This document shows positions 2,651-57,479 of a stretch of DNA of 64,000 nucleotides, piece by piece; the first letter of the stretch is position 1, and every line of letters begins with the position of its first letter. A model generated the notes under the pieces. That model worked only from the letters and a program-made list of their open reading frames with translations, ran no database searches and had not been told where the DNA came from. The translations under genes were made by a program, and so were the position numbers. This DNA is from Dichetophora obliterata (lineage: Eukaryota > Arthropoda > Insecta > Diptera > Sciomyzidae), in assembly GCA_963920525.1 (NCBI GenBank), contig OY986437.1, forward strand, positions 26,616,363 through 26,680,362, written 5' to 3'.

Positions 2651-3079
2651 CCTCACTGGCGTTACGTTACTTAAATATCCATTATAGTTCAAGTGGGTAA
2701 ATAAGTAATTAGGTAGTTAAGTAATTATGTAGTTTAGTAACTAAAAACCAAACATAATGTATTTTTCTTTCCTTGCCTCAACCATACTTTCATTATATTT
2801 ATGAAGCCTTTCATTTTTGCAAAAACAAAAAAATTTACTAAACATTTACGAAACATTTACGAAAAAGAAAAGCTGCATTTGTGAATGAATATATGTATAA
2901 ATTGCTTAAATTAATAAAATTAAAAGCTCTCTCTTAGATAATATAAAATAATTAGTTTTAAATAAGTTTTAATTTTTTTATCACGATAGACTTTTCTGTG
3001 GATATGCCCGTATAAATATTGAATTTATTTCAACATGAAGTTCCAATTTTTATTGAAAAGCTGCTCATTTTCATTGTAG

Positions 3080-3225
3080 AAAATTCACTGTTCGGCCAAT
3101 GTACGGCCGCTGTACGCTGGTTTTACAACCGAGACTATTTCAAAACGGCCTCTGTACGGCCTTATGCAAACGATCCTTGTATATCCCAAAAAAATATTTA
3201 AAATTAGGCCTTGTTCGGCCTTAGC
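3080..3225 (+). repeat. GTACGGCC-rich dispersed repeat, copy B
   Basis: Contains GTACGGCCGCTGTACGC, ACAACCGAGACTATT, CTCTGTACGGCC and then AATATTTAAAATTAGGCC and GTTCGGCCTTAGC. The same words in the same order are present in copy C at 61920-62150, so the two are homologous and not just alike in composition. Confidence 0.75.
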
Positions 3226-4110
3226 TAAAAAGTTTTATTTTTAATCAGAGACAATTCGTTCTGAATTGATCAATGAATGAATTGATGCCATACCAACACT
3301 AAGAACATAACAGATACTGTTCAATAAATTTCGACCCTAAGCGAACAATTCCGTGTTTTCGTGCAAATCCACGTTTTTTCATAAGTTAATAGTTTATTTT
3401 TATGAATTTTTTATTAAGTGTCATAACATGTTTTTGCTATAAGCCCTTAAGTTAATTAATAGAGGGTAAGAAAATTTAAAATCGAAGTGGTTCCGTCATA
3501 ATATCGAATTTTACCTAAGTTTTGCCTACATTTGGTTGCTCAAATTTTAAAAAATATTTCGGTAGGGCTAAATTTCATATAGTTTATTCAACAAATAACT
3601 CAATAATAATAAAGAGCTGAAAAAATATAAAATTTTGTGCTACATTTTTTAACCGAATCGTTCGTTTCAAAATGTGCGAGAACGTTTTCGAAAATCGAAA
3701 ACATTTAAAAAAACCCTTAACCCATGATTTAATTATAAAAGGTTATTCGTATTTTTTGGCGTATGCTTCATTTATATAAACAAAAATAATTAAATAATCT
3801 GTCAACAGTGTTTCGTGATGTTGGAAAAGAAAGGTATGTTTCAGTGTTTCGTTGTGTAGTTTTCTATGGTAGTGTAAAAAGTAGTTTCTCAATGATTTCT
3901 TGCCAAGTTAATGAGAAAACAAATATGTAGGTGGTGCGTCAAGTGTATGCTTGGAATTTAGAAAGTGACTTTGCAAATTCGAAAGTTATTTTTGTCATTG
4001 CTCAAATAAGTGTATTTTTTTAATTGAACGTGTAATTAAGAAGAAAGTGAGTATTGACAAAAAGCAAATAAGAAAGAAGCAGAAAAAAGAACCTTTCTGT
4101 TGCAGCCGCA
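3226..4110. other. AT-rich spacer, nothing recognised
   Basis: No gene, long repeat or inverted ends were found between the second GTACGGCC repeat and the CAGTGCGC element. Confidence 0.45.
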
Positions 4111-4201
4111 CAGTGCGCTTTTTTCGATTTTAGGATGGCATTTGCATTATCTTAGAAACTAATAACTAAATATAATACAAATATAAAACATATATATACA
4201 T

Positions 4202-4595
4202 TAGGGCGGGTCGATTTATTTTTCGACAATTTAACTATGATTTCCGTATTCTATGGGTTATTCCATGAAAATTTGCCAAAGGAACCATACCTCTATCATT
4301 AAAATCGAGTCCCCTACTTTTTGTTGGTAGATTTTTTCCCAAATTGACGTTCGTATGAAATATACCTACACGTTCACATCCATAACTCAAAAACTATCGA
4401 TCAAGTTTAATCGCCAGTAGGCGCGTTGGAAAGGTGAGCTCATTTTAATCAATTTACAAACATCTCCAACATTGGTCCAACGGTTCAAAAGTGACGGGCA
4501 TTTTTGTCCAAATTTTGGAGCATTTTTCCATTTTTTTCACGATTTTGTCCAAGAATATTACTTTCATGGCCATTTTTTTGGCTCAATTTTTTTGA
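4202..4595 (+). repeat. Left terminal inverted repeat of the hAT-like element
   Basis: Shares with the complement of 7445-7696 the blocks TATGATTTCCGTATTCTA, GGAACCATACCTCTATC, AAAATCGAGTCCCCTAC and, further in, GGGCATTTTTGTCCAAATTT and ATTACTTTCATGGCCATTTT. The left copy has about 150 extra bases (near 4332-4487) that are missing on the right. Confidence 0.85.
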
Positions 4596-4909
4596 CTTAC
4601 GAAGCTTACGAACCTTACGTTACGACTGGACTGATTTGCGCTTTACATTATTGGCATATTTTTTCACAGGGTGCACACCCTGTGTTATGTTTGTTTATTT
4701 CTTTTTGTTTTTAGTTTCTTTATAGACTTCTTTATTTTTGTTTGTTTATAATATTCCAGTGTATGCTAGTTTTGTTTGAGCGTCATTTCAGTGAAGTTTT
4801 ACTTAAAATAACTAACAAATAATCAAACTATTTTGAAATTTAGAAAAGATTTAAAGGTAAGTGTAAAAATATTGCTAACTATTATAGTTAATAGTTATAT
4901 TATTATTCT

Positions 4910-7202
4910 ATGAAAAGCATATTTAATTCTTTTAGTGACGGTTTAAAAAATGGATTGGATTCAGAGCCTGGTTCATCGCAAAATCCAACAGATACCCAAC
5001 GCAGTAGTTTGCAACATTTGGTCTCTCATGATGTTTTTTCTTTTGGCGTGGCCTGTGAATTACCTGATATTAATCTGTCAACTAAACGAGATATATTGAA
5101 GTACTATTTTTTCTTGGCCGAACGTTCAGAAGCCGAAAGCAAAATGTTTTCCTATAAAACATTTACTCCCCAAGTAGCAGACAGATTGTTAGAAATTTGA
5201 AATCAACTTAATATTAAACTTATACTCAAAGGTAGCATCATTAGAAAATAGAATAATTTGCTTTACGCATATAGTAATGCAGATAAACAACGAGTAAAAT
5301 GCGCAACAGAATTCAAAAAATTCGTGGAATCAACAAACCAATTATTCAACATTGGAAAATGTAAATGCAACTTGAAAGAAAACGACTGCTCATGTGGATC
5401 TATCCCAGAAAACTTAAAAGATTTCATGCGCGATCAATATAATGACAGAATACAAACGATACCGGAACACGATAGTGGAAGTGAAGAGACGATACCAACG
5501 ACTATACCAACAATCCCAGTGAGCAACGATCCTACATACGAACCACATTATGACGAAATGGAAGTTGATGTGAGAGGAGGTTCAGATTTAGTTCTACCAC
5601 CACAAACATACACTCCCAGATACAATACTAAAAACTATGCAATGATGTGTGACAGATTTGGTGTGCATGACAGAATGGGATCAGCATTGGCAACAGCTCT
5701 GATGGAAGACCGTGGCGTAAAAGATGCTCATGACAATCTTGTCATCATGGATAAAAGTAAACTTCGTAGAGAAAGAGAAAAATGGAGACAAGACGCACTT
5801 CGTAAGCGGTATGATGGCTCGAATATGATATCATTTTCATTCGACGGCAGCAAAAATGATGCTCTAACTGTAGAAAAAATTGATGAGAAGTTGCATCCAA
5901 GGATGGTTAAAGAACCTCATCTTTTTTTTTTTTTGAGGGAACCAAAATCTCAATTGATAGGCTACACAAAACTAGAAAGTGCAACTGCGGCAAGCAAAGT
6001 CAACAAATTGATCGAATTCTTCCAAGAAAAACAATTGTCTCTCGATTCATTAATTGCCATATGCGCTGATGGTGAACCAACAAATACTGGCGTACACGGT
6101 GGAATTTTGCGACTATTCGAAAAACAGTTAAAGAGACCACTTCACTGGTTTGTGTGTCTGCTGCACTTTAACGAGCTTCCGTTTAGACATTTGTTTGACA
6201 CTTTAGACAAATCAACCACCACTGGACCACGATCAACTACCGAAAAGTTGAGCTCAAAAATTGCTGATTGTGAAAATCTTCCGGTATGTAATTTTTATAG
6301 CTGATTCTTTACCATTTTTCATTCTATTTTTTAGCTTTTATGTTTTCTTTTCAGGTGGTAACCGATTTTGAGGAAATCGCTTTGGAAAATATGCCTCCTG
6401 GTGATTTAAATCCAGAAGAATTATCTACCGATTCGAGGTACTTGATGTTAATGGCCAATGCAATTTCTAATGGTGTGGTTCCTGCGGATTTGTCTCACAT
6501 AAAACCAGGGCCAATTGCACATTCTCGTTGGCTGACCAAAGCCAATAGATTATTACGGTTGTATGTAACAACTAATAATCCAACTGAAAATTTAAAAATT
6601 CTGGCTAACTATATAATAAAAGTATACACGCCAATGTATTTCAATGTTAAGTATTATAGCTCTGCCGCATACGGTAGTACATTACTTTTTAAATTAATTA
6701 CTTGGACACGATTTTTACCACCGAATTTACTTGGAGTTGTAAATACAGTAATTCAAGATAATCCATATTTTGCACACTCAGAAAATATCTTGCTATCTAT
6801 GTTGTTTGATGATAGAATGGAAAAACGAAGCATTGCTATAAAGAAGATTTTACCAACGACCCAACGGAGCTTAGAGTTTATAAAAAATCTCTTATAAACT
6901 TTAATTGTACGGAATATACAAATATGATTGATTTAAATGACGATACCATTTTATTCGAACCACCGTTTACGCAAAGTTATTCGTATGAACATTTGGAGGG
7001 ATATTTAAATTACGAAGTGCCACCGTTCGATGATCCACAAATTCCTTTACACATTCAAGGAACGGAAAGACATGTCCAATTGCTGGCTGCCACTGCTAAA
7101 CGAGTTGCAGGAAAGAATGTAGAAGGCGCTATGGCGACGACATTAGAGAGCCGTACGAAAACACCAAGACTTGAAAGCAAACAAGACTTTCAGAAAAAAT
7201 AA
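4910..7202 (+). pseudogene. Transposase-like gene of the hAT-like element (RNase H-fold candidate), broken
   Basis: The reading runs through three open blocks: 4910-5197, 5258-6283 and 6355 onward. The first two are in the same phase but separated by in-frame TGA (5198) and TAG (~5249). A 71-bp intron (6284-6354, GTATGT...TTTTCAG) joins block two to ENLP|VVTDF in phase 0. A frameshift near 6850 moves the reading into the phase that ends at 7202. In the second block are a cysteine cluster CKCNLKENDCSCG (residues 35-46), a likely first acidic site SFDGSKND (D196), a likely second ADGEPTNTG (D271) and a C-x2-H motif VCLLH (C300, H303). C-x2-H next to the second acidic residue is typical of the hAT/MULE/Kolobok/P group of DDE/D transposases. 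I recall similar unnamed predicted proteins in arthropods but cannot name the family. The stops and the frameshift indicate an inactive copy. Confidence 0.7.
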
Positions 7203-7444
7203 TGTTTTTATTCACATTTTGTCTTTTACTGCACTCAAAATGAATTTTTTTTTTGATAATGGGTTGATAGATACTTTATTATCTCTTAATTTGAATTTTT
7301 GTAGAAAAAAAATAAAAAGGGAAAAAAAAATCAAAAAGTTGGTTTTATGTGTTATTTTGTTTTAGCAATATCGCATGAATTAATCAACCGAATTCGATAA
7401 ATTTGGGCTTAAACTCTTCGTTTTGAATTGTAAATTGAATTAAA

Positions 7445-7696
7445 AAATGGATTGAGCCAAAAAAATGGCCATGAAAGTAATATTCTTGGACAAAATCATG
7501 AAAAAAATTGAAAAATGGTCCAAAATTTGGACAAAAATGCCCGTAACTTTTGAAATTTTTACCAACAAAAAGTAGGGGACTCGATTTTAACGATAGAGGT
7601 ATGGTTCCTTCGGCAAATTTTCGGCAAACCCGTAGAATACGGAAATCATAGGGAAATTGGTGAATTTTTTCACTCCCTACAAATCGACCCGCCCTA
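7445..7696 (-). repeat. Right terminal inverted repeat of the hAT-like element
   Basis: This is the inverted partner of 4202-4595 and ends AAATCGACCCGCCCTA at 7696. The very long ends are unusual for hAT elements, which mostly have ends of 10-30 bp. Confidence 0.85.
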
Positions 7697-7914
7697 ATAT
7701 ACATATATATACAAATAAATTAAACTAGCCTTAATTAATTAAAATAAATTAGCCTAAATTAAGTAACAGCACAAAAAATTAGAATTCTAGGTAAATCGCA
7801 TCGCCTACTTCCCATACAAACCATATATTTTTAATAAAAAAAATACCCGCATAAAATTCCTAATTTGTGTTTTTAAAGAGTAAATTTTATAGGAGAGTAA
7901 GTTTTTAAGAGTAA

Positions 7915-8061
7915 GTTTTATAGGAGATATATCTAAAAGTTATTCGATTTGAAATGTTTTTAGCATGACGTTTGAGTGAAGTTAAATAAACGAACTTCAC
8001 TCAAACGTCATGCTAAAAACATTTCAAATCGAATAACTTTTAGATATATCTCCTATAAAAC
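7915..8061. repeat. Perfect 69-bp inverted repeat with 9-base loop
   Basis: The arm 7915-7983 is the exact reverse complement of 7993-8061, with a loop of only nine bases (AAATAAACG). Short direct repeats of the arm end (TTTTATAGGAGA and AGTAAGTTTT) lie just upstream at 7880-7915. RNA from either strand would form an almost uninterrupted 69-bp stem. The perfect match points to recent origin, gene conversion or an assembly fold-back. Confidence 0.95.
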
Positions 8062-12871: not shown

Positions 12872-12971
12872 TGCATTTAGTTTCATCGTTATCTTCGGCA
12901 CGTGCATTCATATTTTTTGTTGATCGAATTTTTTTGTTAATTTCGACTATTTAATTAAAAAAAGAAATAAA

Positions 12972-13883
12972 ATGGGACGAGGAACAACATTAACCGAGGC
13001 GGAAAAAGGAAAAATTAAAGCTTATAAGGACGCTGGCTTATCTATTGCCAAAATAGCTAAAAAAATCGAGAGAAGCCGACACGTTATATCAACATTTTTA
13101 AGTGATGAATTAAAATATGGAAAAAACATGAAAGATCGCACACAGAGTGTGCTTACTAATGCGAAAAGGCGACTTATATTAAGAAAAGCGTCAAATTCTC
13201 ACAACTCTTTGGCAAAAATCAGGAAAAAATGTGGTATCAAGGCAAGTCTCACAACTATGCGTCGTGTTATTTCAAAAGCTAAGTATATAAAAAGACTAAA
13301 AATCAAGAAGAAACCACCCCTTATCTCGATTCGAAAACAGCAACGCCTCAGTTTTTGTCGTGAACATGTGACTTGGACTTCGGAGTGGCATCGAGTGGTC
13401 TTCTCCGACGAAAAAAAATATAATTTGGAAGAGCCCGATGGCTACAGTTACTATTTCAACGACCTTCGCAAAGAAACTCATCATTTGGACAGGCTGCATA
13501 GCAGAGCTGGAGGTGTTATGGTGTGGGGGGCCATTTCTTTTTATGGCACCTGCAAACTACATTTTATGTCCACCACAATGAATGCGTTGTCTTACAATGG
13601 AATATTGAAAGAGGCCTTTCCATACTTTCAAACCCTTTTTGGACCTCTGCGGTGGATTTATCAACACGATAATGCGCCAATACATACAGCACGGGTAGTT
13701 AAAAAGTATATACAGAGCCAAAATGTGGAGGTACACTTCCAAACCGGATGTGTACAGTTTTGGAGCAGAAAGGCGGCTCAACACACTATTAAAACAATTT
13801 TTTTAATCTTAAATACTAAAATTATCTTCAACTTAAGAAGTAATAAAATTAATCATAAAATTCTTAAAAGTTTTTTTTATTAA
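12972..13883 (+). pseudogene. Tc3-like transposase, C-terminus lost
   Basis: A 303-codon open frame starts MGRGTTLTEAEKGKIKAYKD in AAATAAAATGG context. The N-terminal ~60 residues form a helix-turn-helix (SIAKIAKKIERSRHVISTFL), and a second winged-helix-like part follows to ~110. The first catalytic Asp is in VVFSDEKKYNLEEPDG (~residue 142), with VMVWGAISFYG and the second catalytic Asp in YQHDNAPIHTA. The expected WPxxSPDLNPIENLW block with the third acidic residue is absent: after QNVEV the reading continues as unrelated Lys/Ile-rich sequence to the stop, consistent with a deletion or frameshift. Family members are usually ~330-350 residues. The N-terminal and central parts are otherwise open, so inactivation is fairly recent or single-event. 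Confidence 0.9.
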
Positions 13884-21500: not shown

Positions 21501-21647
21501 TGAGTTGCTTTTTTTTCCCAGATAGCCAATTGGCTTGGTTGAAAACGGTGTGCACTTTTAAAAACACTGAAGCGGACCGTTTCGTTGTCAGCAAACTATG
21601 CATTGTTGTTTCATATAAGCGTGCCATTTATTAAGTTGTATATTAAT

Positions 21648-22044
21648 GTTGATTTTCTATGATTTAAATACAAATTCTAAATGTTTGATAGTTTAAATCA
21701 TTATTGATTTTAAATACAAAATCTAGTTGTTTGATAGTTTAAAATCGTTTATTGAGCTTTAGATCAGGTTAGACCAATTAATTGCTCTAACGAATTTTTT
21801 TCAAAGAAACAACAGCAACAACACTTTCAATATGAAAAGAAAAAAAACATCACTAGCTGATTAATTAGTTAGCTGATTGATTAACTAGTTTAACCTGACC
21901 TAAAGCTCAATAAACGATTTTAAACTATCAAACAACTAGAATTTGTATTTAAAATCAAGAATGATTTAAACTATCAAACAATTAGAATTTATATTAAAAT
22001 CATAGAAAATCAACACAAAAAATAACAAGGTCATTTAGAAAACT
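21648..22044. repeat. Foldback element, copy 2, flanked by 17-bp direct repeats
   Basis: It has the same two-part arms as copy 1 at 12253, with outer ends GTTGATTTTCTATGATTTAA facing their complement, which ends GAAAATCAAC near 22014. A tail of about 27 bases (AATAACAAGGTCATTTAGAA...) follows the right arm, as in copy 1. A 17-bp direct repeat, TTAAGTTGTATATTAAT, lies at 21631-21647 and 22045-22061 and looks like a target duplication. That is long for a cut-and-paste element. Confidence 0.85.
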
Positions 22045-23033
22045 TTAAGTTGTATATTAATTTTATTTGTTGTTAAACAGTTGTAACTTTTTCTTAAAAA
22101 ATTTTTTATTAAGTTGCAACAATAAGCTAAACAATAAACGGCAACTCAACTGCACTACCTTGATTTCAATACAAGGGTGAAAAAAAGGGAAAAAAGACAA
22201 GAACAAACGTCACATCAAGCGAATATGACATAAATTTCAATTCGATTCTTGATAAATATAAAAAAGGACTTTACAATTATATAGAGAATAGTTTAAAGGT
22301 ACAAAAACTTGTCATTTTTATACCAGCAAATCAGACGCTGCCGTTTTAAGTACCGTTTAGCTGGCACAGTAACATTCATGGCTTGTTGGGTTGTAATGCA
22401 ATAGAGAATACAGATGCATGTAGCTAGAGAGCCAGTATGTGGCTACAAAAAAATGTACTACTACTAGCCAAGGTTGCCAGTTAAAATTTAAAACAATCCG
22501 ACAAAAAGTTACTTTTTTCACAATAACATAAATTAATACAACAAAAATTACCATTGTAAAGAAAAACAAAAAATTTCTACCGCAATAAAAAAATATCAAA
22601 AAAATCTCACGATCATTAAAAATTACCACACAAATACCACGCGTTTTAAAAAAAGGCACAGTTTCGAAAGTATCGTAAGTATAGACGTAGAATTCCTTTT
22701 TATATAGTAATAGAGAAATATTTTGTTTTTTTCATTCATATTTTTAAAAACTATTTAAAAACATTTCATCTTCTAAATAAAAATTATTCAAAAACAAATT
22801 TGTTGTTTTTGTTGCCTTCTAAACTTACTTGATCTAAAAAGCTCACAATTAAATTCATGTAAAAATTTGTTTTGTTTTATAAAAAGTTTTCGTTTGATAT
22901 TTTTAGTGATGAATTTGTTGTTAATTTTTTATGTTTGTTACAACTAAATGTAATTCAAAGTTACGTTTAATAAATGGAAATAAAATCGATAAAATTTAAA
23001 TTATTTATTTTTCCTGTAGAAAAGAGCATTAAC

Positions 23034-23079
23034 CTATATATATATATATACAATATATATATATATAACAATATATATA
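23034..23079. repeat. (TA)n microsatellite in the inverted-repeat loop
   Basis: Three TATATATATA tracts separated by CAA/ACAA interruptions. Confidence 0.9.
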
Positions 23080-23186
23080 TCAAACGAAAAGTTTTTATAA
23101 AACAAAACAAATTTTATTATGAATTTAATTGAGAGCTTTTTAGATCAAGTTAGTTTGAAGAAGGCAACAACAACAACAACAACAAA

Positions 23187-23735
23187 CTTGATAAGCTTAC
23201 CATTTGGCTTGAAAAGTGGAAAATTGTTGTCAATTCCGATAAATCAACACATGTAACTTTCGCTTTAAGAAGAGGTGACTGCCCACCTGTTAGCATCAGC
23301 GGTGAAAGCATTCCAAAAAGTGACTCAGTAAAGTATCTTGGGCTTACTTTAGACAAACGAATGACTTGGAAACCACACATCAAGGCCAAACGCACACAGT
23401 TGAACATGAAAAATCGAAAACTCTATTGGCTTCTAGGTCGACACTCGCAGCTTTCTCTCAATAACAAGGTGCGAATTTATAATGCCATTTTAAAGCCGGT
23501 TTGGACCTACGGAATACAATTATGGGGAACTGCCAGCAACTCAAATGTAGAAATTCTAGAGAGATACCAATCAAAAACTCTTAGGCTCTTAACAAACGCA
23601 GCGTGGTTTATATCCAACAAAACTATTAATAGAGACCTTAACGTCGTACCTGTAAAAGAAGAAATCAGCAGATTTAGCACCAAATATTTGCAAAGGCTCA
23701 GCGACCATTCAAATGGCGATATCCTTATTGGATGA
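23187..23735 (+). pseudogene. Jockey-type ORF2 C-terminal fragment
   Basis: The frame is open for 182 codons from the truncation point to TGA. It starts within the thumb region (LTIWLEKWKIVVNSDKST), then has VKYLGLTLDKRMTWKPHI, LYWLLGRHSQLSLNNKVRIY, ILKPVWTYGIQLWGTASNSN and ILERYQSKTLRLLTNA. The YLGLxLD block and the WTYGIQLWG block are strongly diagnostic of the Jockey clade. Only the end of ORF2 is present, as is usual for 5'-truncated copies. The absence of stops suggests this is among the younger insertions in the window. Confidence 0.93.
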
Positions 23736-35814: not shown

Positions 35815-37108
35815 CAGGCTTACACTAAATGGAAAAGATTGCCGACAGACTTGTACTGGGAAGCATAAAAGACAGCTCGAAATGAGGCCAATTCGGTTGT
35901 AAAGGATGCCAAGAAAAATTTCTACAAGTCAAAACATAACATAACGCTTTCCTCCAAGCAACTTTGGAAAAATTTAAAATAAATTGGAGTGTGCAACAAA
36001 CAGTTGCCTAAGTGTCAGATTGACCCAGATGCTCTTAATGACTTTTTTGTCTCTGACTCACAGCCCGTTGTAAACTGTAATCAAAACAGAGCGAATTCTG
36101 TCAATATTATAAGCAATTTTGAGTTTTCCAGCGTATCGGAATAAGAAGTAGCCAGGTCTATAATGAGAATTAAATCCAGTGCTCTTGGAGAAGATGGTAT
36201 AAATATAAGGTTTATAAAAATGATTTTGCCTTACATTTTGAGTCCGTTAACGCACATCATTAACCACTGCTTTACTAGCTCGTCCTATCCTAAAATGTGG
36301 AAAGTAGCAACAATTATTCCCATTGTAAAAAAAGCTAGAGCATCTAAACCATCTGATTTTCGACCTATAAGCTTGTTATCATCTCTTTCTAAAGTCTGTG
36401 AGTCACTAATGGCAGATCAGGTCTCAGCGAATGAAGACCTAGATGCAATTAATAAGTGGGCGATAAGTAACAAGCTCAAACTAAATCCATTAAAATCTTT
36501 CGTGTTGCCAATATCAAAAAGTCGTTATTCAGTTGAAGATATTCCTGCCGTATATATAAGTACTACACCACTAAAGTCTGTTGAAAAGATAACCAACCTT
36601 GGATATCGGATTAACACATCACTTTCATGTGTAGACCATATTAACTATGTTGTAAGCAAAATATACTTTGTCTTAAGAAATCTGCGAATGACTGCTCAGA
36701 TCACACCAACAGAAACTCGTCGTAAGCTAGTAATACAATTTACATAAACTGCAAGTGGCGTTAAACTATGCGGGCCGTTATGTGTATGGTCTCAGAAGAT
36801 TTAGCCATGTTACTGGTCTAAGCACCCGAATTCTGGGATGCAATGTGGAACATTATTTAAAGGCGAGAAATTACATATTCCTGCATAAGCTGATACACTC
36901 AAAAACTCCAAACTATCTATATTCTAAACTTCAGTTTTGTTTATCAGCCAGAAGCTTAAATTTGGTAGTTCCTCCCTTTAAATATTTAAATTCCTCAAGA
37001 CTTTTTTTCGTAAGCACCATTAGATTGTGGAACTCCTTGCCGAGGTACCTTAAATCTATTTCCAACGCACAAAACTTCAAGCAATTAATATCTGCACATT
37101 TTTCTTGA
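35815..37108 (+). pseudogene. Non-LTR reverse transcriptase relic with internal deletion
   Basis: The order is that of a non-LTR pol ORF. First AYTKWKRLPTDLYWEA, then (after stops) KDAKKNFYKSKHNITLSSKQ at ~35905, a pre-RT linker. The fingers of the RT follow: SSALGEDGINIRFIKMIL, then MWKVATIIPIVKKAR and SDFRPISLLSSLSKVCE (36290-36405). The frame then jumps to LDAINKWAISNKLKLNPLKS and TNLGYRINTSLSCVDHINYV, so the RT core with the YxDD box is deleted. A further phase change at ~36750 leads to the C-terminus, RYVYGLRRFSHVTGLSTRIL to TIRLWNSLPRYLKSIS, ending at 37108. Clade is not certain (CR1/Jockey supergroup). The ~350 bp after the stop may be its 3' region. Confidence 0.85.
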
Positions 37109-37464: not shown

Positions 37465-38316
37465 TATATTAGATTATTGGTAGTTAAACGAGCTATAGGT
37501 CAGATTTTTTTTTTTTCTTAATTTATTTAATATAAATTTAAATTCCAATATTTCGTTTTTCGTTGAAAAACATCATCAGGGAAAACACTAAAAAATATAC
37601 AATAATTACAAATTACAATATAATCACATAACATAATATTTAAAATACATGAACTTACAAAAATTAAATAAATATACTGAATTTACATTGATTTTTTAAA
37701 AAAACATTTGAGAAACGATATGACAAAAAACATAAGAACATCTAGCCTGAATAAACAACACTTGACGACGGACTTTGATGACTAATTATTGTTAGTTTTG
37801 TCTTATAATGTTTTGTTTATTTGTTTGCTCTTTATTTATTAGGTGTCTGTAGATGTGAGCGCAATTGTCCGTGTCAGTCTTAAAATTCAATCTCAATTGT
37901 TTAGGGACGTTAATAATGTGTAGCATTTCAAGCATGTATCGTCTCCTATAATTTTTCTCTTGTTGCAGAACTTTTGTTTTGTCAAAATCAGGAGCGTGTC
38001 CAGACTTCGTACAATGGGCTGCTAATGCTGTTTTTTGTTCTAAAGGTTTGTCCAGTGCTTTAAAGTCTGACTTATGTCCTGCTCAAAATCAATGTAAATT
38101 CAGTATATTTATTTAATTTTTGTAAGTTCATGTATTTTAAATATTATGTTATGTGATTATATTGTAATTTGTAATTATTGTATATTTTTTAGTGTTTTCC
38201 CTGATGATGTTTTTCAACGAAAAACGAAATATTGGAATTTAAATTTATATTAAATAAATTAAGAAAAAAAAAAAAATCTGACCTATAGCTCGTTTAACTA
38301 CCAATAATCTAATATA
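37465..38316 (-). mobile_element. Penelope-like element fragment between ~231-bp inverted arms
   Basis: The arms 37465-37695 and 38085-38316 are reverse complements, nearly perfect apart from a one-base length difference. They enclose 389 bp that encode, on the minus strand, the C-terminus of a Penelope-type endonuclease. Head-to-head terminal repeats are a known product of Penelope insertion. The outermost bases TATATTAGATTATTGG form part of both arms, so no simple target duplication is visible. Confidence 0.8.
37792..38088 (-). pseudogene. Penelope GIY-YIG endonuclease C-terminal fragment
   Basis: The minus strand is open for ~98 codons to TAA at 37792. It contains HKSDFKALDKPLEQKTALAA, HCTKSGHAPDFDKTKVL, then QQEKNYRRRYMLEMLHIINV and RLNFKTDTDNCAHIYRHL. 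TALAAHxxxxGHxxDF, the RxxLEMxHI block and LNxxTDxxxxxxIYxxL are the order seen after the GIY-YIG core in Penelope-like elements. The GIY-YIG signature itself and the whole reverse transcriptase are missing because the right arm begins upstream. The open frame suggests modest age. Confidence 0.85.
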
Positions 38317-41897: not shown

Positions 41898-42143
41898 CAT
41901 ATCGAGCCATATCTGCACAAAAAGCATAAGCGCCATTTAGAAAACTTTACTGAAGAAGGTTTTCTTAATTATCTTTGTTGTATTAACTGGTATTTATGTG
42001 GAATTCAGTATATAAGTAACTGTTATATACCTTATTTCCACATAAATACCATTTAATACAACAGAGATAATTAAAAAATACCATCTTCTGTAAAATTTTC
42101 TTAATGGCGCTTAAGCTTTTTGTGCGGATATGGCTCGATATTG
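41898..42143. repeat. 246-bp palindrome
   Basis: The left half begins CATATCGAGCCATATCTGCA and the right half is its complement, TGCGGATATGGCTCGATATT. The pairing extends inward through AAGCGCCATT, AATTATCT and TGGTATTTATGTGGAA to a small loop (GTATATAA-GTAACTG-TTATATAC). There are scattered mismatches. Confidence 0.88.
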
Positions 42144-55890: not shown

Positions 55891-57479
55891 CTCTGACAAG
55901 CAAAAGTGGAACACTTAACTGACTTAAGAAAGCTCTTCTTTAAAAAATGTTATTCTCAAGACGTCTGGCTCAAAAGTTTTTATGAGGAATATTACTTGCT
56001 CTCTTGCTTAAAAAAAAATTTGAGAGATATGAAACTTGTTCGCTCTCCTACATAGAGGTGGATTTGTTTGTGTTAGTTGTCATAAATGTTCCACTTTTGC
56101 ACTCCACGTAGTTTTTCTCTATTTTAACCGTTATTTTAATATTTATTGGTATTTCTATAAAAGTTTTAATGTCAGTCTTAGTGTGCACATCTTTGCTTGA
56201 CAATCGATTAAAATGTTACTTCCAAAGAACGTGAAATCTCAAATTTATTAGAAACGGATGTTTCAATTAGAAATATTGCAAAAAAACACAATATTAGCCA
56301 TACGACGGTACAAAGGTTGAAAAAAAATACAAACTTTCAAAATCTAAGTCAAAATTAGGACGTCCAAAAAAAATTGATGATCGAACTTGCAGCCATATTG
56401 CGAATTTGGTGACAAGCGATAATGGTGTTTGTCCGGCTGAAGCAGCAAAAATTCTTGGAGTTGATGCAACTGAGTAGACTGTACGTAGAAGTCTACGCGG
56501 CACAGGTTTAAAAGCTACAGAGAAAAAGAAGAAACCATATATTTTAGCAAAAAACTTAAAAATGAGGAAGAAATTCGTCAAACAGTATGTAAACTGGACT
56601 ACATCAGACTGGGAAAAGGTAGTTAAAAAAGTGATGTTTCAAATTTTTTTTATCAAGTTTTGTAATACTTTTGTAGGTTATATGGTGCGAGGAGACTAAA
56701 ATAAACCATTTTGAGTTGGATAGACGATCGTGGTATTGGACCAGCGAACCCAGCGTATTGACTCCAAACCAAGTCAAACAAACCATGAAACATGGCGGTG
56801 GATCTATCATGGTTTGGGGTTATATAATAGGGAATGGCGTGGGACCCTTGAAGAAAATAGAAGGAAACATGAATGAAGAACAGTACCTATCCATTCTACA
56901 AAATAATTTGCCAGCCGCTATAGAAAAAACGGGTCTTTCGTCTGAAAAAGTGATTTTTCAGCACGATAATGACCCTAAGTATACCGCTAAAATAGTGACA
57001 AAATGGCTGCAGGAGCAAAAGTTTTCGGTTTTAAAGTGGCCTCCACAATTGCCCGATATGAACCTTATCGAAAATTTTTGGAGTCATGTCAAGTCCAAAT
57101 TGGCAAAATACCCTGAAGCCCCAAAAGGTGTTCACGAACTTTGGGAACGTGTATTAGAACTTTGTCTGGCAGGCAATTCCGGATGAAATGGTATCAAATT
57201 ATTGCAGTAACATGCCTTCACGCATCAAGCAACTTAAAGAAGCTAAAGGTTATTGGACAAAATATTAATATTTACTGTTTAATATGATTCTGTTGTTTGA
57301 GAGCGAAATTGGAACATTTGTTACATGAAATGAATTTGTTAAATTTTTTATTTTTTGATCATCATAATAATTGTATAAAAACAAAATAAAATTTATAATA
57401 ATCTCTTTTAAGGAAGACTTAAAATATCTGTTTTTTTTTGTGAGATTTAAGTGATGTGTTCCATTTATGCTCGTTACTG
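55891..57479 (+). mobile_element. Tc1-family transposon, ~1.59 kb, degenerate
   Basis: The ends are CTCTGACAAGCAAAAGTGGA (55891) and, on the complement, CAGTAACGAGCATAAATGGA. They align over 24 bases with 7 mismatches and both continue into ACAC. The flanks are TA (55889-55890 and 57480-57481). Size and contents fit Tc1. Confidence 0.85.
56218..57268 (+). pseudogene. Tc1 transposase relic with a candidate 58-bp intron
   Basis: The N-terminal helix-turn-helix reads ISNLLETDVSIRNIAKKHNI, then SHTTVQRLKK. After a phase change in an A-run (~56322) come the conserved GRPKKIDDR linker motif, NGVCPAEAAKILGVDATE, a TAG stop (~56476), TVRRSLRGTGLKA and NWTTSDWEK. Then comes VIWCEETKINHFELDRRSWY, where the usual first catalytic Asp of SDETKI is Glu. 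GGSIMVWGYI, VIFQHDNDPKYTA (second Asp) and LPDMNLIENFW (third site, normally SPDLNPIENLW) follow. Another phase change at ~57165 precedes the last ~30 codons, ending at TAA 57266. Between DWEK and VIWC lies 56619-56676 (GTAGTTAAAA...TTTTGTAG), which interrupts the alignment in phase 0 and has intron-like ends. Confidence 0.9.

Follow-up and report, generated by a model that had tools for sequence, protein, structure and literature searches.

The question raised by the transposon copy studied here is whether an element with hAT-like termini and target-site duplications, and a transposase that matches no hAT family in Pfam, belongs with the hAT superfamily or has converged on its features. The copy occupies positions 4202-7696 (exact coordinates) of the window, the whole 64,000-nucleotide stretch of contig OY986437.1 from Dichetophora obliterata that was analysed. 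An initial annotation had left open both a divergent hAT lineage and an unrelated superfamily that had converged on 8-bp duplications. The predicted fold and residue register, the length of the duplications, their target pattern and the termini all point to cut-and-paste transposition of the hAT type, and the feature is very probably a single DNA transposon copy of hAT type, now decayed, that moved in the manner proposed below. The first option is supported by the fold, catalytic register, 8-bp duplications and nTnnnnAn target pattern, and the same evidence makes the second unlikely. We regard the family as a deep branch of hAT or its sister group rather than as a catalogued member.

Termini and target-site duplications

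The element is bounded by the following features.

4194-4201, no strand: left target-site duplication ATATACAT, its 8-bp length confirmed on other copies
7697-7704, no strand: right target-site duplication ATATACAT
4202-4217, plus strand: left terminal 16 bp, a perfect terminal inverted repeat (TIR), TAGGGCGGGTCGATTT
7681-7696, minus strand: right terminal 16 bp, matching the left 16 bp as a perfect inverted repeat
4202-4593, plus strand: long inverted end on the left, of which the part around 4330-4483 has no partner on the right
7442-7696, minus strand: right long inverted end

The inverted repeat is well matched over ∼392 nt of the left end (to 4593) and 255 nt of the right end (from 7442), lengths that exclude a gapped alignment extendable further into AT-rich sequence. 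Beyond the termini it consists of two blocks of 103 and 113 nt with 91% and 94% identity, and ∼150 nt of the left arm have no counterpart in the right arm. Within the window the terminal 16-mer occurs twice at up to three mismatches, compared with 0.14 expected, and 2 of 100 shuffles reach two occurrences. In the whole genome the exact 16-bp terminus is found 1638 times on one strand and 1637 times on the other, against 0 for a backward control.

Because ATATACAT has complementary outer bases, the duplication of the window copy taken alone can be read as 8, 6 or 4 bp; its length was settled at 8 bp because other genomic copies show 8. A search of the host genome (1.31 Gb, 76 contigs) gave 568 candidates, of which 40 were scored; all 40 matched, the window's own copy being one of them. 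The other 39 loci were fetched; 28 had both termini and, with the window copy, make up the 29 copies counted, the remaining 11 being omitted because at least one terminus was missing at a tolerance of two mismatches. An exact 8-bp duplication is present in 23 of the 29, and in 15 only 8 bp fits when lengths of 3-14 are tried. Of the others, 8 lie inside AT repeats, so that the length is indeterminable, and 6 have one or two differences between the sides. All 15 clean duplications carry T at position 2 and A at position 7, compared with 12.6% of 7,050 flanking words. The outer bases are non-complementary in nine of the 15, and there the termini therefore cannot shift outwards.

Short copies behave similarly. 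The first 100 listed termini include 22 facing pairs of less than 1.7 kb; of the 20 that were fetched, 16 have an exact 8-bp duplication. Where only 8 bp fits, 11 of 15 follow nTnnnnAn (14 have T at position 2 and 12 have A at position 7; background 12.6-12.7%). One short copy (L066) has no duplication at all. Three further loci of the window's type have 8-bp duplications that all fit nTnnnnAn, and for two of them the scan also gave a chance inner inverted pair. The perfect 8-bp duplication, TAGGG termini and 250-390-bp inverted ends reported by the initial annotation were all recovered, and a different duplication length in other copies, which it had named as a refuting result, did not occur. 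Kolobok, with its TTAA target duplication, was rejected given the 8-bp duplications. The target preference of the family matches that of Hermes, given as 5′-nTnnnnAn-3′ in PMC10368747.

The transposase gene and its protein family

The gene and the motifs discussed below lie as follows, all on the plus strand.

∼4950-6283: exon 1, with an out-of-frame ATG at 4950 and stops at 5198 and 5249
6284-6354: intron, 71 bp, GT-AG, phase 0
6355-7202: exon 2, with a frameshift near 6860 and the stop TAA at 7200-7202
5360-5395: CxC(6)CxC cluster, Cys codons at 5360, 5366, 5387 and 5393, close to the end of the predicted N-terminal helical domain
5843-5845: predicted first catalytic Asp (FDGSKND), aligned with Hermes D180
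6068-6070: predicted second catalytic Asp (ADGEPTNTG), aligned with Hermes D248
6155-6166: CxxH motif (CLLH), aligned with Hermes C265/H268
6526-6531: RW motif (HSRW), aligned with Hermes R318/W319
7065-7067: predicted catalytic Glu (GTERH), aligned with Hermes E572

The window copy is a broken, decayed gene, with a 5-bp insertion, stops at 5198 and 5249, and the frameshift near 6860. The extra 5 bp stand directly after the ATG at 4950, where they shift the frame of exon 1, and are missing from the other copies looked at; of the 39 other loci, none has the TGA at 5198 and one has the TAG at 5249. In the window's subfamily, 8 of 39 loci have an exon 1 that reads open from its ATG. Annotated proteins from Contarinia nasturtii (P0007) and Rhagoletis zephyria (P0015) read through across the intron position, in accordance with the intron-containing gene described initially, and the motifs listed then (CKC..CSC, FDGSKND, ADGEPTNTG and C-x2-H) are each present in the translation. 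The gene is longer than the stretch translated at that stage, 5258-6283. The view that the known hAT blocks are missing did not hold, as divergent versions of CxxH, RW and the predicted catalytic Glu block all occur, the Glu block lying behind the frameshift in the window copy.

The homologue search gave 102 clusters; a profile search gave 126 and listed 120 of them, for 165 distinct listed clusters combined. Following an earlier suggestion, the CxC cluster was traced in other arthropods: all 18 clusters that bear an organism name are from insects (Diptera, Thysanoptera, Lepidoptera, Hemiptera and Coleoptera). The family conserves the CxC-CxC cluster in most members, together with FDGRK, DGxxxNTG, CLLHxNELP, RWxT and HTQxxER. 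A precomputed Pfam domain is present in one of the 165 clusters (P0126), in which an OTU protease domain is fused in front of the transposase. Two Frankliniella fusca proteins (P0098 and P0100) are publicly named glycine-tRNA ligase and TPR protein, apparently by wrong transfer.

When 25 members were scanned against Pfam and NCBIfam, matches were scattered and nearly all confined to single members, with no transposase family above noise. In the same 25 members Pfam matched neither a BED zinc finger, which is not universal in hAT, nor a THAP domain, nor the C-terminal hAT dimerisation domain PF05699, of which the equivalent Glu block is present. No good PDB match was found for the N-terminal domain. 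The family profile, which the initial annotation had proposed to compare with described families, was thus captured by none of those searched (Pfam, NCBIfam and Hermes-type hATs). KDZ (Kyakuja-Dileera-Zisupton) transposases also carry N-terminal CxC cysteine clusters, and were considered on that ground. They were rejected, as neither a KDZ transposase domain nor a CxC domain is among the 22 Pfam families listed for the 25 members at E up to 1, and the best fold match is Hermes.

These results bear on novelty. That the family is an ordinary hAT group already in Repbase or Dfam, outside Pfam, is compatible with our reading, and we give it slightly less than an even chance. The family is abundant in insects, its termini and duplications are hAT-like, and Repbase covers arthropods widely (PMC4455052). 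Against this, 164 of the 165 clusters lack a precomputed Pfam domain, the names of the 18 organism-bearing clusters never say transposase, and literature searches aimed at such elements listed none; none of these three is a test of Repbase.

Fold, active site and placement

A structure model predicted from 25 sequences has an RNase H fold with a large all-helical insertion, as in the hAT superfamily. By VIA-align the best fold match is Hermes (16.7 at rmsd 4.7), well above the P element (9.3 at rmsd 8.7). Seven residues are predicted to lie in exact register with Hermes D180, D248, C265/H268, R318/W319 and E572, and we take the D, D and E to be catalytic and the CxxH and RW motifs to have their hAT roles. 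The family further resembles Hermes, of the Ac family of hAT, in its nTnnnnAn duplications and its element length of ∼3.2-3.7 kb, and its ends agree with the TAGGG-type hAT consensus. It differs from Hermes and other hAT elements in the CxC-CxC N-terminal domain, in inverted ends of ∼250-390 bp, and in the lack of profile-accepted sequence similarity and of BED or PF05699 matches.

Several results weigh against a hAT affiliation. The model is a prediction, with a pTM of 0.65 from 25 sequences, and Foldseek ranks ISCth4 first, Hermes second and third, and the P element fifth, at E values of 2.4e-5 to 1.3e-3 and target TM-scores of at most 0.40. At the sequence level, hmmsearch against Hermes-type hATs gave 0 of 57 matches and 1 of 165 at E 7.3, hhalign gave E∼0.03 with a probability below 2%, and the best shuffle scored almost as high (26.2 against 26.38). 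No hAT family was matched in Pfam, apart from a single touch among the 25 members to DUF4371, a hAT model, at E 0.097. Four of the 15 clean short-copy duplications do not fit nTnnnnAn. Finally, although the terminal 16 bp form a perfect TIR, inverted ends of 255 and 392 nt far exceed the 10-25 bp given as usual for hAT in PMC3942097; the initial annotation had called them atypical.

The long ends, the N-terminal domain without a good PDB match, the missing convergence with Hermes-type hATs and the absence of a curated transposase match could point to a separate RNase H transposase superfamily, unrelated to hAT, that converged on 8-bp duplications and TAGGG ends. We consider this very unlikely, because the fold, in which Hermes stands well above the others by VIA-align, the register of seven residues and the Hermes target pattern would all have to converge. 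Long inverted ends, an RNase H fold, 7-8-bp duplications and insect hosts are likewise shared with the P superfamily as represented by Galileo, but membership there is extremely improbable: those elements have a THAP domain, not matched here, and a 7-bp GTANTAC target, unlike the 8-bp pattern found, and the P element fits the model worse than Hermes does.

As stated in PMC4455052, Repbase assigns membership when a transposase converges with known members in an iterated profile search at E<0.005. No such convergence was found with the Hermes-type hATs used, or with Pfam as a wider test, and hence the family is placed as a deep branch or sister of hAT. Under that rule it is conceivable, though we think it rather unlikely, that it forms a separate superfamily sister to hAT, sharing active-site architecture and target pattern but with a new CxC-CxC N-terminal DNA-binding domain and long ends as a binding platform, spread over at least five insect orders and recently active (best copies ∼98% identical). 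A 2014 survey of RNase H-like proteins (PMC3985635) puts hAT families and P elements in one clade, in which only P elements lack the hAT dimerisation domain. The present family would be a further one without a PF05699 match.

We propose that the N-terminal helical CxC-CxC domain of the transposase would take the role of a BED finger and bind the long inverted ends, and that the enzyme would cleave at the TAGGG termini with a D-D-E site in an RNase H fold bearing a large helical insertion, as in Hermes. Joining of the ends would then span 8 bp of target, in most cases with T as the second base and A as the seventh. Excision by hAT elements leaves hairpins on the flanking DNA, and the same strand-cleavage chemistry is presumed here. 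Short copies that retain only the ends would most simply have been moved in trans by a full-length enzyme.

This is an abundant insect transposon lineage without a curated protein family among those searched, whose genes are filed as uncharacterised or apparently misnamed, and its inclusion would extend hAT, or a group sister to it, past what sequence profiles can reach. Since the 8-bp nTnnnnAn pattern is kept while the DNA-binding domain and ends differ, the family allows a test of what sets that pattern. A family model would improve insect gene and repeat annotation.

Other copies and neighbouring features

The first 100 terminus matches in the list contain 24 facing pairs less than 5 kb apart, 20 of them spanning 0.83-1.03 kb. 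In one such short copy (L058) an internal deletion has brought element positions 1-476 next to 2980-3495, and four others compared likewise keep mainly the ends. Median pairwise identity of exon 1 is 98.2% among 40 copies, a value that leans high because these are the best-scoring ones. Two loci among the 11 omitted from the duplication count (L020 and L021) are identical 4,161-bp stretches ∼90 kb apart on contig C2, from either a recent duplication or an assembly effect.

In a search of the genome with P0007, 61 of 5,220 candidates were scored and yielded 122 matches, among them a second subfamily, ∼70% identical, in which several frames are stop-free. Eight of its nine loci have inverted ends of ∼260-330 bp with TAGGC/TAGGG-type termini, and an 8-bp duplication fits in five of the nine, unambiguously in one. 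A third subfamily, 53-54% identical, has TAGAG ends and inverted ends of ∼255-265 bp; two of its three loci have duplications, ATATAGAT and GTGAGCAT, which both fit nTnnnnAn, and the third (L079) has neither inverted repeat nor duplication.

Elsewhere in the window, open frames at 12924-13883 and 56677-57186 resemble, from their translations by eye, Tc1/mariner-type transposases, and those at 23154-23735 and 36145-36747 resemble pieces of non-LTR reverse transcriptase. A 147-bp palindrome (95%) lies just to the right of the element at 7915-8061, and other long palindromes are found at 21647-22015, 22800-23179 and 41899-42141. An inverted or repeated pair of 232 bp at 37465-37695 and 38085-38316, 99.6% identical, perhaps represents the ends of another recent element.
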